Positions 40,757 to 45,949 of a stretch of DNA of 64,000 nucleotides are shown here, piece after piece. Position 1 is the stretch's first letter, and every line of letters starts with the position of its first letter. Both the position numbers and the translations under genes were made by a program. Source of the stretch: Saccharospirillaceae bacterium (GTDB lineage: Bacteria; Pseudomonadota; Gammaproteobacteria; Pseudomonadales; Oceanobacteraceae); assembly GCA_022448365.1 (NCBI GenBank), contig JAKVCS010000005.1, forward strand, positions 248,001 to 312,000. Reading direction: 5' to 3'. Below the pieces are notes generated by a model. The model searched no databases. It had not been told where the DNA came from and was given only the letters and a program-made list of their open reading frames with translations.

Positions 40757-42085
40757 TTATATCTCACTTCGGTAGTCCTCCTCCGGAAACGGCAGTTCAT
40801 CAAACTCCAGCTGATGGTCATCCTCGTACTCAAAGCCGTCGTCCAGCTCTGGAGGCTCAATGTCATCCGCGGCATCATCGTCGAGCGGGTCGCTATGGTT
40901 GTCGTCAGAGTCATAGTCTGGCTCATCGTCCCGAACGTGGTCTGAATCATGTTCGTGATGATGAGGGTCATGATCGAAGTCACGTTGTGCGTCATCAAAC
41001 CAGAACGCATCCTCGTCTTCATCAAAACCAATGCTGATGCTGTCGTCGATTTCCAACCCGTCGAAGGCTTCCGGCAGTTGCACTTCAAAACCTTCCAGAT
41101 ACAGCTCCGCATCTTCCATCGGGAACCCTTCGAGCCAGAATTCATCCGCCAGTTCCAGTAACCGGGTCAGTGGCATAGGGTGCCAGTCGTCGACGATAAA
41201 CTCGTTGTTCTCCAGTTCACCGCTGAGCGTCAGTGGTTGATCCAGTGCTGGTATATCGTCTTTAAACTGCAGCTTCTGCTCACCCAGCATAAAGCTGCCT
41301 TGAAGCGCCGAAACGGGCCCGGCAAGCAGTGCAATTTGCTCTGGCCAATCGCGTATCAGGCTGGCGCGGATCGTTTGATCCGGTGCCCGTAAGCCACTGA
41401 CTGCGAGCCATTGTCCGGCAACCAGCTGGTTTACCGCCAATGGCTGTTGATGCTGATCGAGCAGTCGTGTGCGGTTATCAACAATCACCCGTTGGCCAAG
41501 AATCTGTAACTCGGTTTTGTTGTTTGCCAGATTCTGCACCGATGTCAACGGGCCAATCACGTTATTCACCGAGTGAACTTCGATTGCCTGATAATCTTTA
41601 CCGGATTCATCGGCGAGTACAGCAACCACCTGACCTAAGCGAATATCGTCGCGCTGGCTTTGCGCGCCGTCGCGGAAGTAACGGGTATGCTGCGGCAATA
41701 GGATATGGCGATCGTTCACCCAGATGCTGCCGAAGGCGCTAACGCTGCCAACAATGGTGGCTTTGCCGGGTTGCTTTCCGCTACCACCCAGACCATTTTG
41801 TGGGGTATTGGGTTGTTGCTGATCAACCGGGCTGCCGGTACCTCCGAGGCCATTACGTGCCTGCTGACCGGTGCCACCCAAACCATTTTCCGGTTTGGCG
41901 AAGGGGGCTTTGCCGGTTCCTCCGAGACCATTATCAACAGCCGGAGTGCGGGCTATTATGCGGCCCTGATATTCGATCTTACCGCTTTTGCTGGTTTCGA
42001 CAGAGCGCCAGTGTGACTCCTGCGTTGAGCAGGCGATCAGTAAGCCACACAGCAGCCAGAGCAGTCGCTTACTGGTGCGGTTCAT
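40757..42085 (-). CDS. DUF5666-type lipoprotein with NGLGGTG repeats and acidic tail
   Basis: About 442 residues. The lipobox LLIAC (C19) makes it a lipoprotein. Four NGLGG(T/S)G repeats lie at 52-58, 67-73, 78-84 and 97-103. Repeated small beta modules of DUF5666 type follow (GSVSAFGSIWVNDRHILL, LRLGQVVAV-like, LTSVQNL, LVAGQWLAVSGL). The last hundred residues are extremely rich in Asp, Glu and His (FDHDPHHHEHDSDH), likely binding divalent cations. Start ATG 42085 overlaps the DUF6502 3' end by 17 bp. Function unknown. Confidence 0.8.
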   Translation of the reverse strand: MNRTSKRLLWLLCGLLIACSTQESHWRSVETSKSGKIEYQGRIIARTPAVDNGLGGTGKAPFAKPENGLGGTGQQARNGLGGTGSPVDQQQPNTPQNGLGGSGKQPGKATIVGSVSAFGSIWVNDRHILLPQHTRYFRDGAQSQRDDIRLGQVVAVLADESGKDYQAIEVHSVNNVIGPLTSVQNLANNKTELQILGQRVIVDNRTRLLDQHQQPLAVNQLVAGQWLAVSGLRAPDQTIRASLIRDWPEQIALLAGPVSALQGSFMLGEQKLQFKDDIPALDQPLTLSGELENNEFIVDDWHPMPLTRLLELADEFWLEGFPMEDAELYLEGFEVQLPEAFDGLEIDDSISIGFDEDEDAFWFDDAQRDFDHDPHHHEHDSDHVRDDEPDYDSDDNHSDPLDDDAADDIEPPELDDGFEYEDDHQLEFDELPFPEEDYRSEI

Positions 42086-42926
42086 GACGCTCATCCTCGT
42101 CGAACACATACATGCCAACATTAACGCGCTGGTGAAAATTGCCTGGCTGATCCTGCTGCTTCAGTTCCAGTGCGCGCTGGTTCAGGCGTGTCAGCAATGC
42201 CATGCCTTCGTCGGCGGCCAGTTGTTTCAATTCTTCAACCGAGGCTTCCGACAATCCGTCGTAATACAGGCAGCGTTCAAATTTTGCCGGTTGTTGAAGC
42301 AAATTATTGCTGACGGTGGCGATATGGTCGGCGAGGTTCAGACCCAGGAAGAAGGCTTTCTCGTCGACACCTTGTTTCGGAACAAACGCATTAGGTGTGA
42401 GTTGAATCTTCAGCTCACCCTCTTGCTCAATTTCTTCTGCGGCACCCAGGCGCAGCCACTCATCCAGAACCACCCTGGCACGAATATCTTTCTTCGCAAC
42501 TTGCTCAACCAGCGCTTCAAAGCTGGGTTGTGCATCCCCGGTTTGCTTAAACGGCAACGCCAGCGGCTGGGCATTCGCATCGCAATAATGGGCCATCCAG
42601 TATGCGGCAATCTGAACGCCAAGGCTGACCACCTCTGGCGTGTGTGTGGTTTGTTGTGGCTCGCCGCGCAGGCGTTTGATGTCTTTACGATGAATGCCGG
42701 TGAGCAAGCTGAGGCGGGTGTCGGTCTGGGGCTTGCCCGGTAGCGGGAAGTCACGTTCGGCGACATCAACCATGGCTTTTTTCAGCCATTCCTGCACCAC
42801 CGGATAGGTGATCTGAAACGACAGCAATAGTTTTACCAGCGGTTTCAACAGGCGCTGAACCGCTTGATTGAGGGCTTTTGGAGCGGCGCTGCGGCTCGGT
42901 TGCTGTGTGTCGTGGGGCTTATTCAT
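42069..42926 (-). CDS. DUF6502 family protein, possible DNA-binding regulator
   Basis: About 285 residues from ATG 42926. Residues 70-87 (TRLSLLTGIHRKDIKRLR) look like the recognition part of a helix-turn-helix. The rest is helical and without signal peptide, so it is cytoplasmic. It is co-transcribed with the DUF5666 lipoprotein and divergent from the protease gene. Its promoter reads TTGTGA at 42992-42987 and TAAAAC at 42969-42964, 17 bases apart, with a palindrome just after it. I infer that it may regulate both sides. Confidence 0.8.
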   Translation of the reverse strand: MNKPHDTQQPSRSAAPKALNQAVQRLLKPLVKLLLSFQITYPVVQEWLKKAMVDVAERDFPLPGKPQTDTRLSLLTGIHRKDIKRLRGEPQQTTHTPEVVSLGVQIAAYWMAHYCDANAQPLALPFKQTGDAQPSFEALVEQVAKKDIRARVVLDEWLRLGAAEEIEQEGELKIQLTPNAFVPKQGVDEKAFFLGLNLADHIATVSNNLLQQPAKFERCLYYDGLSEASVEELKQLAADEGMALLTRLNQRALELKQQDQPGNFHQRVNVGMYVFDEDERHEPHQ

Positions 42927-42947
42927 ATAACAAGCATACCTAAGCGA

Positions 42948-43069
42948 GGGATTTTTTCCCACTGTTTTACCCGAATGTGATGCCTGTCACAAAACCACCA
43001 GTATTAATGTTTTGACAAGGGAAAAATTCCCTCGTAGTGTGGAAATGGAATTGAGGGAATATTTCCCTC
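42948..43069. promoter_or_regulatory. Divergent promoters with three GGGA-TCCC palindromes
   Basis: Site A is GGGATTTTTTCCC (42948-42960), placed over the start of the leftward promoter. Site B is AGGGAAAAATTCCCT (43018-43032). Site C is GAGGGAATATTTCCCTC (43053-43069). The rightward promoter is TTGACA (43012-43017) and TAGTGT (43035-43040), and Site B fills the 17-base spacer exactly. Sites B and C are centred 36 bases apart. This layout suggests one repressor for both directions. Confidence 0.75.
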
Positions 43070-43147
43070 GAATTGTCGGGTGTTAAATCAAGCACCAATT
43101 CCTGGTTACCCGGCAGAGCAATCACAACGAATCGGAAGGTGAAAGCT

Positions 43148-44605
43148 ATGAAGATGATTAACAGTAAAACACTCGCGCTCAGTACCCTGGCGGTTGCGCT
43201 TTCAACGGCACTGCCGAGCTATGCCGGTGTCGTCAATGCACCTCAGCAGCGCATTATTGGCGGTGTTGATGCAGGAAAAACGGCATATCCGTGGATGGTA
43301 TCGATTAAAAGTAAGACCAGTGGCCAACATTTTTGTGGTGCCAGTCTGATCGACAAACAATGGGTATTAACGGCGGCCCACTGTCTTGAGGAGGTTGGCG
43401 CCGACGATATTCAGGTCACTATCGCGGAATATGATCAGGAGTCGAAGGATAGCGGTGAACAAACCCTGCTGGTCAGCGCTATTTATATGCACCAGGACTA
43501 TGACCCAGACCACGATATTGCGTTGCTTAAGCTGGCCGAAGAGTCGGATAAGACACCCGTTGCGCTGGCCGATGCAAACTTTATGGCCAATCTGAATGTT
43601 GGAACTGAGCTGACGACTATCGGCTGGGGGCTGACCAGAGACGGTGATTACAGCAGCCTTGCAACGATTTTACAGGAAGTAAAAGTCCCCCTTTACAAGC
43701 AGGCCGACTGTAAAATCAACTACGGCAAACTGGATGTCGAGATTACCAGCAATATGGTGTGTGCGGGGTTACCGGCAGGCGGAAAAGATTCGTGTCAGGC
43801 TGACAGTGGTGGCCCGTTATTTGTGCAGTCCGGCGGCAGCATGGTGCAACTGGGCGTGACCAGTTTTGGTGAGGCTTGTGCCAAAGCCAGCTTTCCCGGT
43901 GTATATACCCGTGTAGCGGCTTATCGCGATTGGATTATTAAAGCGAAAAAAGGAGAGGTGCCGGCACATAAGCCGGATGACCAATCTGGTGGTACCGACA
44001 GCCCGTTAGAACAAGAAGTGCTGGGATTACCGCAATCTATCGATTTATTCGTCGACAGAGGACAGCAATCTGCCAGCGACCAGCTGACGTTGGAGAATCC
44101 GAAAGAAGCCAAAGCCAATTTGCTGGTGAGTGATATGACCATTGATGGTGATGGTTTCTCTCTTAAAGAGAACAGCTGCGCTAACCAGGCGATTGAGCCG
44201 GGTAAGAGCTGTCGTTTCAGCGTGAGCTACCAAGCTCAGGGCAACAAGTCTTTTGCTGAGGGTCAGCTGCAGTTGAAAACGAATCATCAGACTCATCAAA
44301 CCATTGAGGTCGATTTGTTTGCCCTGAACGGCAATGCTTTTGATGAAGCAGATGATGTGAGCTGTTCGATTTTTACTGAGCTTAATCTGACCAACGATAA
44401 AGAGGATGCTGATGGCGACAACGGCTGTGACAATAAAGAACCAGACGATAACGCTGATAACAACGATTCGAACGATGACAACACTGATAATAACAGCGAT
44501 GAAAAAGATGAGAACAAATCCGAGGTTACGTTTGCTGGTGCACTGAATCCGCTGATGTTACTGGGCTTGTTAGCGCTGCCATTGGTGGGCCGTCGCAAAT
44601 CATAA
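43148..44605 (+). CDS. Secreted trypsin-like serine protease with C-terminal anchor segment
   Basis: About 485 residues from ATG 43148, which has GGAAGG upstream. A signal peptide ends near SYA; activation would cut before I36 (R-IIGG). The triad is H78 (TAAHC), D123 (DHDIALL) and S220 (ADSGGP), with D214 giving trypsin-like Arg/Lys preference. The usual Gly before the DSGG is Ala here. A beta-sandwich of HYDIN/ASH type follows (about 330-420), then an Asp/Asn-rich acidic linker and a last hydrophobic helix with RRKS. That end resembles GlyGly-CTERM sorting tails but lacks the Gly pair. Confidence 0.92.
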   Translation: MKMINSKTLALSTLAVALSTALPSYAGVVNAPQQRIIGGVDAGKTAYPWMVSIKSKTSGQHFCGASLIDKQWVLTAAHCLEEVGADDIQVTIAEYDQESKDSGEQTLLVSAIYMHQDYDPDHDIALLKLAEESDKTPVALADANFMANLNVGTELTTIGWGLTRDGDYSSLATILQEVKVPLYKQADCKINYGKLDVEITSNMVCAGLPAGGKDSCQADSGGPLFVQSGGSMVQLGVTSFGEACAKASFPGVYTRVAAYRDWIIKAKKGEVPAHKPDDQSGGTDSPLEQEVLGLPQSIDLFVDRGQQSASDQLTLENPKEAKANLLVSDMTIDGDGFSLKENSCANQAIEPGKSCRFSVSYQAQGNKSFAEGQLQLKTNHQTHQTIEVDLFALNGNAFDEADDVSCSIFTELNLTNDKEDADGDNGCDNKEPDDNADNNDSNDDNTDNNSDEKDENKSEVTFAGALNPLMLLGLLALPLVGRRKS

Positions 44606-44626
44606 TTACCAGAAGAAGAGATTCTC

Positions 44627-44648
44627 AGCCGGGGCAACCCGGCTTTTT
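44627..44648 (+). terminator. Terminator after the protease gene
   Basis: AGCCGGG-GCAA-CCCGGCT followed by TTTT, a compact tetraloop hairpin 22 bases after the stop. Confidence 0.9.
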
Positions 44649-44696
44649 AACGAATGAATAAGCTGGCCGTTGGTCAGCGAACTCAGGAGTCGCATA

Positions 44697-45044
44697 ATGG
44701 AAAAATTCTCATTGATGTGCAGTTTGGTACTGATGGCCGGTTGCGGTGCAACCAGCACCAATAACCCTGCAGAGCCATCAACACTGGAAACCCTTTACGG
44801 TTATCGCTGGCAGGGAAATGTTCTGTTTGTGGATGTGGTGAGCCATGGTTGCACCAAACCGCAGGATTTTGAACTCGACTGGCCAGACACAGACAGGCTG
44901 GTTATCAAACGCTTAAGGCCAGACCGTTGTCGGAAGGCTGCTACAATAACGACGTTGAATTTCGAAACCGACCAGCGCAGGGGTCAGTCGATTCAGGTTA
45001 TTAACCCGATTCAGGCGACCCGGATTAAAGCGTTCAATAACTGA
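44697..45044 (+). CDS. Small lipoprotein of unknown function
   Basis: 115 residues. The lipobox is LMAGC. The mature part has GYRWQGNVLFVDVVSHGCTKPQDFEL and a second cysteine pair member in RPDRCRKA, so a disulfide is likely. AGGAG precedes the ATG at 44697; the longer frame from 44670 lacks support. It lies between the protease and the beta-barrel gene. No family recognised. Confidence 0.8.
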   Translation: MEKFSLMCSLVLMAGCGATSTNNPAEPSTLETLYGYRWQGNVLFVDVVSHGCTKPQDFELDWPDTDRLVIKRLRPDRCRKAATITTLNFETDQRRGQSIQVINPIQATRIKAFNN

Positions 45045-45088
45045 TTTCCCGACTGCAATTTCAGCGGCTGGCGCCAGATACAGAGAAT

Positions 45089-45949
45089 ATGAGCAAACGT
45101 CTTCTGATTATTACGGTTATGCCGATTGCGATGTCTGTCGCAGCCGCAGAGCAAGTACAGACCTCCTGGTCTTCGTTCTTTTACCAGGGCGATTATGGTG
45201 GCGACTCTGACACCGATACCTGGGTTAATCAGCTGCGCTTGAATTATCGCCACGATAACTGGCAGCTGGGGTATAGCCAGGCTGTTATTCAACAGCACGG
45301 CAGTCAGCGAATTGTTGATGGCGACAATCTGGATGAAGAACAGCCAGATGATGATCAGCTGGCTGATGAATTTGATGTGGACAGCCCGGATAATGACGAT
45401 CCGGATCCAGAGCAAAACGAACCCGAGCGATATTCAACCTTCTCCCATCATCGCAGTGGTTTGTCGGACCCAAGTGTGCTGCTGAGTTATCGCTGGGCAG
45501 ACAGACGATCTTTGCTGGACAAAAGCCAGGGAAGCTGGCGACTGGCGCTGCGTTGGAAGTTACCACTAACTGATGAGCAGGAATTTTCCAATGGCCGTCA
45601 TGAGTGGCGCTTGTCGATGCATCGTTCGCAGCGTTTTGAGCAGCTGACGTTGAGTGCTTCACTGGGTCACCACTGGCGACAATATCAGGCCAACAAAGAC
45701 AACGATCAGCGCTGGTACACGCACATAGGTGTGATGTTTTTTCCGGGTAAGTCAACCGGTTTGGGCGCGTCCTATTTTTATAAACAAAAACTGGAATCAC
45801 AGTCTGAGGCAGCGCGTTCGGTTGCAGTAAATGGCTACTGGCGGCTAAACCGTGCGCTCTCGTTGACCGCCAACGCCGGCTTTGGGTTATCGGAAATTGT
45901 GGCTGACCATTACCTTGGTATCAGCGTTAATTACCGTTGGCGGCTGTAG
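45089..45949 (+). CDS. Putative outer-membrane beta-barrel protein with acidic loop
   Basis: 286 residues with a signal peptide ending near SVAAA. Alternating strands such as WRLALRWKLPL, LTLSASLGHHWRQY and THIGVMFFPGK end in NYRWRL. A strongly acidic insert (about residues 80-112, DEEQPDDDQLADEFDVD and similar) probably forms an extracellular or periplasmic loop able to bind cations. It starts 44 bp after the small lipoprotein on the same strand. Function unknown. Confidence 0.72.
   Translation: MSKRLLIITVMPIAMSVAAAEQVQTSWSSFFYQGDYGGDSDTDTWVNQLRLNYRHDNWQLGYSQAVIQQHGSQRIVDGDNLDEEQPDDDQLADEFDVDSPDNDDPDPEQNEPERYSTFSHHRSGLSDPSVLLSYRWADRRSLLDKSQGSWRLALRWKLPLTDEQEFSNGRHEWRLSMHRSQRFEQLTLSASLGHHWRQYQANKDNDQRWYTHIGVMFFPGKSTGLGASYFYKQKLESQSEAARSVAVNGYWRLNRALSLTANAGFGLSEIVADHYLGISVNYRWRL

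Follow-up and report, generated by a model that had tools for sequence, protein, structure and literature searches.

We analysed a 64,000-nucleotide stretch of a Saccharospirillaceae genome (positions 248,001 to 312,000 of contig JAKVCS010000005.1; hereafter the window) and focused on a divergent locus of five genes. On one side lie a DUF6502 protein and a DUF5666 lipoprotein, and on the other a secreted trypsin-like protease, a small lipoprotein and an outer-membrane β-barrel. We infer from sequence comparison that DUF6502 binds GWGGGA-N5-TCCCWC palindromes as a one-component, autoregulated repressor of this envelope or surface-protease module, and we give this reading a probability of roughly 0.77. 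The comparison establishes a conserved locus, predicted operators with a fixed position in the promoter, covariation and co-occurrence of operator and regulator, and the pairing and fusion of the protease with the small lipoprotein.

The five genes are found in the same divergent layout, by tblastn and profile searches, in the window genome, in G001 of the same genus, in G016 of another genus and in G039 and G081 of another family; the barrel of G039 is detected by profile only. A first-pass annotation of the window had proposed two opposed units with a common regulatory region and had chosen conservation of the neighbours as the test of that proposal. Both hold, since the five genes and their divergent layout are kept together in 5 genomes from two families. 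For DUF6502 at large, 78 regions were examined, namely the window and 77 regions fetched from a longer list of matching places; the DUF6502 profile was positive in 76/78, and the counts leave out L104 and L134. The loci show three architectures: DUF6502 followed by DUF5666 (type A), DUF6502 with a nearby barrel (type B) and the window type (type C).

Three 17-bp palindromes, overlooked in the first-pass annotation, start at 42946, 43017 and 43053 in the shared intergenic region. The predicted operator O1 (42946..42962; no strand is assigned to the operators) lies 20 bp upstream of the DUF6502 start codon and is present in 5/5 type C loci. The predicted O2 (43017..43033) fills the spacer of a TTGACA-N17-TAnnnT protease promoter in 5/5 loci, between the −35 element TTGACA (43012..43017, plus strand, invariant in 5/5) and the −10-like element TAGTGT (43035..43040, plus strand, at a distance of 17 nt from the −35; by eye, all five loci read TAnnnT). 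The predicted O3 (43053..43069) comes 36 bp after O2 in the window, shortly beyond the predicted transcription start; across the five loci, the distance from O2 is 34–37 bp. Each locus has its three palindromes at matching places, with O3 of L027 and L030 keeping 7/8 core bases. The conserved dyad is found in the promoter region of DUF6502 itself as well as in the target promoters. Three such matches (up to 3 mismatches) were reached by 2/100 shuffles of the window; therefore, the weight of the palindromes comes from their conservation and not from the window alone. Genome-wide in G000 (the window genome), G001, G016 and G039, the places within one mismatch of GWGGGAAWWWTTCCCWC were 3/3 in this intergenic region. 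With up to 2 mismatches, the sites in six genomes amounted to 0.8 to 2 times the reversed-pattern control, and thus the regulon search was limited to exact or one-mismatch sites.

The positions of the operators suggest how DUF6502 would act. At O2 it would sit inside the −35/−10 spacer of the promoter of the protease, lipoprotein and barrel genes, and at O3 just after the transcription start; bound at these places it should block RNA polymerase, which argues for repression. At O1 it would repress its own DUF6502–DUF5666 operon, and an inducing signal would release it from the operators. Activation by DUF6502 seems unlikely. MerR-type activators realign a promoter from its spacer, and such a mode would suit the place of O2 and −10 elements that are only TAnnnT. 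Against this, TTGACA with a 17-nt spacer is kept in 5/5 loci, so that realignment would be unneeded, and a protein bound at O3, beyond the predicted start, would be expected to block. A function of the palindromes at the RNA level, as hairpins or attenuators, is extremely improbable: O3 does score as terminator-like on the minus strand, but O2 is located ahead of the predicted start, within the −35/−10 spacer, and the number of terminator-like matches in the region is close to that given by chance (9 found, 7.5 expected). The palindromes were also rejected as terminators. Between O1 and O2, at 42976-42991, the window also holds a perfect TGTGA-N6-TCACA palindrome, which we take to be CRP/Vfr-like; on visual inspection, L030 keeps a half-match and L027 no match at all. 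A second regulator may therefore act there.

The association of palindrome and regulator extends beyond the five loci. A strict palindrome near the start (−350 to +90) was found for 39/76 DUF6502 genes and for 26/567 other genes of the same regions; 11 of these 26 are DUF5666 or barrel genes and therefore perhaps targets. When one core mismatch was allowed, 52/76 DUF6502 genes had a site with N5 or N6 spacing and one had N7. The spacing of the half-sites differs with the locus, with 22 N5 and 0 N6 sites in barrel loci compared with 5 N5 and 25 N6 sites in the others. In a DUF6502 tree of 75 rows, 52 of them with a spacing state (midpoint root, short search), the spacing shows two changes, one of which falls at the deepest split [SH-like approximate likelihood ratio test (SH-aLRT) 99]. 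A search of 20 chosen DUF6502-bearing genomes gave 38 places with the exact N5 operator, in 16/20 of them (22 places beside DUF6502, 16 elsewhere), and the reversed-pattern control gave 3 places, all in G094; many of the 22 were known before the genomes were chosen, but only two (G180) of the 16 elsewhere. In 39 genomes without a DUF6502 match (of 43 such genomes), the exact operator occurs at 1 place (control 1). Among 66 non-redundant N5 sites, 24 abut TTGAC (≤1 mismatch) and TAnnnT on the same strand, compared with 0.08% of random positions; related genomes contribute to the 24 and were counted separately, so that part of these cases are not independent. Of the 74 plasmid records that contain DUF6502, six were read, with estimated gene starts in L152, L154 and L155; a palindrome of the same kind lies upstream of DUF6502 in 3/6 of these Alphaproteobacterial plasmids (Azospirillum, Microvirga and Methylocystis). 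In the Rhizobium plasmids L151, L154 and L155, a ATGGGAAAAWTTCCCAT palindrome follows the DUF6502 start at a distance of about 2 kb; in L151 it lies beyond the annotated DUF5666 gene.

Most of the 16 unlinked places stand before recurring genes. Five are located before trypsins in G180, G298 and G317. Three precede a small lipoprotein followed by a large protein, which in G180 is an M12B reprolysin with homologues of about 60% identity in G298 and G317. Three further places precede a gene that in G180 encodes a transglutaminase-7TM-ATP-grasp protein, again with homologues in G298 and G317 (75–77%). One lies before a β-propeller gene in G094, and β-propeller genes with sites away from DUF6502 are also present in G007 and G054. 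The other four have targets that do not recur (an Hcp protein in G298, one with a MipA match in G094, an unassigned one in G015 and nothing clear in G390) and may be chance matches. In the single Hcp case (L222, G298:C9), the exact operator lies in a TTGAT-TAnnnT module upstream of the gene for this type VI secretion protein. In G180, G298 and G317, the unlinked trypsins bear twin sites with a separation of 35 bp and are followed by a small partner of the same kind; in the tree, the DUF6502 proteins of these genomes (L088, L086 and L090, respectively) cluster with those of type C (SH-aLRT 98). A further genome of this genus, G350, carries an N6-clade DUF6502 only, and its assembly (91% complete) holds neither an exact operator nor a trypsin of this type. 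These twin sites bear on another explanation, in which an ordinary VesB/VesC-like protease locus stands beside an unrelated DUF6502–DUF5666 pair and the two are neighbours by descent. DUF6502–DUF5666 pairs and pairs of trypsin and small lipoprotein do each occur without the other nearby. Nevertheless, we regard this explanation as very unlikely, since the genes stay together across two families, a search next to the locus in G016 and G039 did not find the outer flank genes of the window, and the protease still bears the twin operator where it is unlinked.

DUF6502 had been described in the first-pass annotation as a possible helix-turn-helix (HTH) protein; an HTH-type regulator is supported as probable, and the operator link backs the regulator role. 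The proposed HTH comprises residues 69–87 (42666..42722, minus strand), where the fold evidence is weak; G77 and R80 are invariant in 32/32 aligned members. A model of residues 12–100 has a moderate predicted local distance difference test score (pLDDT) of 68, with 73–84 for the blocks of the HTH region, and its structural matches are mostly HTH domains, including PcaR (Z 5.5), sigma factors, LuxT and DeoR. Single other DUF6502 members gave weak HTH matches (E 0.03–0.08). Among solved structures, the DUF6502 profile found no relative (best E 0.14). The Pfam entries PF20112 and PF18914 record no function, and DUF6502 is not named in any paper found in the open literature, a coverage outside which most subscription papers lie.

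Several observations weigh against DUF6502 as the repressor. In the structure prediction, which the first-pass annotation had suggested as a check, the AlphaFold2 model of the full-length protein from a two-sequence input was poor (pLDDT 39) and was therefore not used for structure search, and the HTH-like matches of the moderate N-terminal fragment were non-significant (Foldseek E above 1; best Z 5.5). No curated HTH family passed its cut-off; the window protein matched only PF20112, even at E 10, and none of the curated Pfam models of TetR, IclR, LacI and MerR. Regarding the sites, 23/76 DUF6502 genes are without one even at one core mismatch, and three Rhizobium plasmid genes have none upstream. 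The 20 DUF6502-bearing genomes were hand-chosen, many after sites beside their DUF6502 genes had been seen, and four of them (G014, G019, G029 and G350) carry DUF6502 but no exact operator. N6 sites abut TTGAC in 0/36 cases, so the N6 clade must act differently. In a wider sample of the phylum, the strict site was present at 5/21 loci; the GGTG loci of this sample number 6/21, with a site in L157, L161 and L165 and none in L164, L172 and L175. As for the protease, the residue before DSGGP is Ala in the window and Gly in the six other copies compared. We take this glycine to be that of the oxyanion hole (193 in chymotrypsin numbering), and its replacement by Ala may alter the activity of the window protease. 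The tail of the protease shows no clear GG motif, and no NCBIfam tail model matched it; with such an imperfect GlyGly-CTERM, the export step is only a lead.

Some of these points would suit a different transcription factor that reads the palindrome, with DUF6502 as one of its targets and acting otherwise in the cytoplasm: the HTH evidence is weak, 23 of the 76 genes have no recognisable site, and the link between DUF6502 and the palindrome is drawn from comparing sequences. We consider this quite unlikely, as the spacing of the site follows the DUF6502 clade and the site is almost absent in the 39 genomes without a DUF6502 match. Furthermore, DUF6502 is the only regulator-like product among the five genes of the linked loci, and G350, with its N6-clade DUF6502 only, has no exact operator and no such trypsin in an assembly that is 91% complete.

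All five genes claimed in the first-pass annotation were found in place. The DUF6502 regulator (42069..42926, minus strand, 285 aa) matches PF20112 over residues 17–279 of 285 with E 1.5e-31 and 109.7 bits (gathering cut-off 27). The gene of the DUF5666 lipoprotein (40757..42085, minus strand; PF18914, E 1.3e-12, 48.2 bits, gathering cut-off 27) overlaps the end of the DUF6502 gene by 17 bases; the glycine-rich repeats named in the first-pass annotation are real, with four GLGG[TS]G copies, and the protein has an acidic tail. On the plus strand, the trypsin-like (S1) protease (43148..44605) matches PF00089 (E 2.2e-60, 204.7 bits) and has an RIIGG activation site, His/Asp/Ser motifs, an acidic linker and a hydrophobic tail ending in RRKS. 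The small lipoprotein (44697..45044) carries an invariant SxGCTxxxDF...R...DRCR pattern and matched no family in a Pfam search at E 0.1. The barrel (45089..45949) is PF13557-like by a weak match (E 8e-6), and such barrels recur beside the DUF6502 genes of the N5-operator clade. The likely starts are 42926 for DUF6502, 42085 (rather than 42121) for the DUF5666 protein, 43148 for the protease, 44697 for the small lipoprotein and 45089 for the barrel.

A scan of a genome-contig collection gave a single locus, from an uncultured Oleispira metagenome-assembled genome, with the same match as the G016 contig; among viral contigs, which were scanned twice using a pair of short patterns each time, no relative of DUF6502 was confirmed. 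The window genome itself has a second locus, of type B, at C3 (DUF6502 paralogue G000:C3:904669-905442). Type B loci usually contain a small GGTG protein and often a β-propeller-type protein as well. In 38/76 loci, the gene that follows DUF6502 contains G[x]GG[TS]G motifs, compared with 0/771 other open reading frames (ORFs) of the same regions, and the adjacent, overlapping DUF6502–DUF5666 pair is also present on plasmids of Azospirillum, Rhizobium and Methylocystis. In the type B subgroup L098–L100, the barrel precedes DUF6502; L098 has a subtilase (PF00082) nearby, another protease beside DUF6502, with ORFs of comparable size following in L099 and L100.

The five orthologues of the small lipoprotein share SxGCTxxxDF and DRCR, and we refer to this family as GCT/DRCR or GCT. 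A GCT profile search gave 20 places in 16/194 genomes of the order, and at 13/20 the GCT protein is beside (nine) or fused to (four) a trypsin. The fusions, at the trypsin C-terminus, occur in G080 (twice), G141 and G212, all of one genus; in L190, L192 and L194 one frame encodes a trypsin, its tail, a second hydrophobic, lipobox-like stretch and the GCT domain. The nine neighbours include an interrupted trypsin (G087) and an oddly ordered one (G167), and the fetched flanks of the other seven of the 20 places hold no trypsin motif. No relative of the small lipoprotein was found by its profile among solved structures (best E 0.6). The pairing and fusion point to the GCT lipoprotein as a dedicated partner of the protease, most likely an inhibitor or escort that would keep it quiet until it reaches the surface. 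In G167 (L191, 5714-6703, minus strand), the trypsin halves are reversed within one ORF, which runs from a signal-like start through the GDSGGP half to IIGG, TAAHC and the Asp motif; the order suggests either a natural circular permutation or an artefact of assembly or duplication, and is seen in one genome only. In L227 (G317) and L182 (G087), the trypsin gene is interrupted in the assembly, by decay or sequencing error.

The regulated products would go to the envelope, where the GGTG/DUF5666 lipoprotein and the barrel would complete the module. The protease has the motifs TAAHC, DHDIAL and DSGGP and a weak match to an Ig-like domain. Against the Protein Data Bank (PDB), it matches 4lk4 (E 1.1e-37) and 6bqm (E 1.6e-39), with plasma kallikrein as the best match (2.9e-47). 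It would be exported, probably by the type II system, its hydrophobic tail probably being cut by rhombosortase, as for VesB, and it would be activated at R|IIGG. The tail has a hydrophobic and a basic part in 5/5 orthologues; by eye, a clear Gly/Ser motif is present in L032 and L094 and was not seen in the window, L027 and L030. Rhombosortase (TIGR03902) is over the cut-off in 5/5 type C genomes compared with 0/14 control genomes, and type II GspD in 5/5 compared with 2/14. VesB uses both type II secretion and rhombosortase (PMC6219818).

The first-pass annotation had proposed a common, cation-dependent envelope function, in which the acidic segments of the protease, the DUF5666 lipoprotein and the barrel loop bind Ca or Mg. 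As a measure, the largest net acid charge in 50 aa was calculated for the five orthologues. The protease (12 to 37) and the DUF5666 protein (18 to 32) are strongly acidic in 5/5, and this part of the observation stands. In contrast, the barrel reaches 18 in the window, while its other four orthologues stay at 4 to 8; thus, its acidic loop is peculiar to this genome. The tails of three Alphaproteobacterial DUF5666 partners are, by eye, rich in Gly, Pro and Arg and not acidic. The common cation function was therefore dropped, and we regard it as improbable. As far as the sequences tell, the conserved neighbourhood of the five genes is meaningful and points to regulation and not to cations.

Beyond the window, it is somewhat more probable than otherwise that DUF6502 is an undescribed Gamma- and Alphaproteobacterial repressor family that would run a surface-proteolysis regulon (trypsin with lipoprotein partner, M12B metalloprotease, β-propeller, barrel and GGTG/DUF5666 proteins). 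Its two clades would read half-sites one base apart, and the GCT/DRCR protein would be an inhibitor or escort of GlyGly-CTERM-like trypsins, sometimes within one polyprotein. If this is true, a DUF of no recorded function gains a specific biochemical role, a testable DNA sequence and a set of target genes. It also suggests a way in which some bacteria keep cell-surface proteases silent until needed and draws attention to a family of small lipoproteins that would partner GlyGly-CTERM-like trypsins.

We finally compared the locus with known systems. The protease resembles VesB and VesC of Vibrio cholerae (4lk4 and 6bqm) in its trypsin domain, R|IIGG activation site and hydrophobic basic tail, and presumably also in an Asp at the specificity position. 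It also matches the VesB-like Ig domain weakly, and its genome has type II secretion and rhombosortase genes. However, its tail differs from the GlyGly-CTERM of VesB/VesC in having no clear GG motif, and Ala before DSGGP is found in the window only among seven copies. The acidic linker, the GCT/DRCR lipoprotein neighbour and the DUF6502 operators are features of the window locus. With respect to PF20112 and PF18914 as catalogued, the window proteins are members, to which the present analysis adds the predicted operator, the clade-specific spacing and the regulon. Regulators of the TetR, LacI and IclR kinds include autoregulated repressors whose operator overlaps the core promoter. DUF6502 is similar to these in the dyad operator within the core promoter, the site in its own promoter region and the HTH-like N-terminus. 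It differs from them in matching none of these families at a curated cut-off and in the recurring TTGAC-GTGGGA-N5-TCCCAC-TAnnnT module, in which the candidate operator and the promoter elements are joined.

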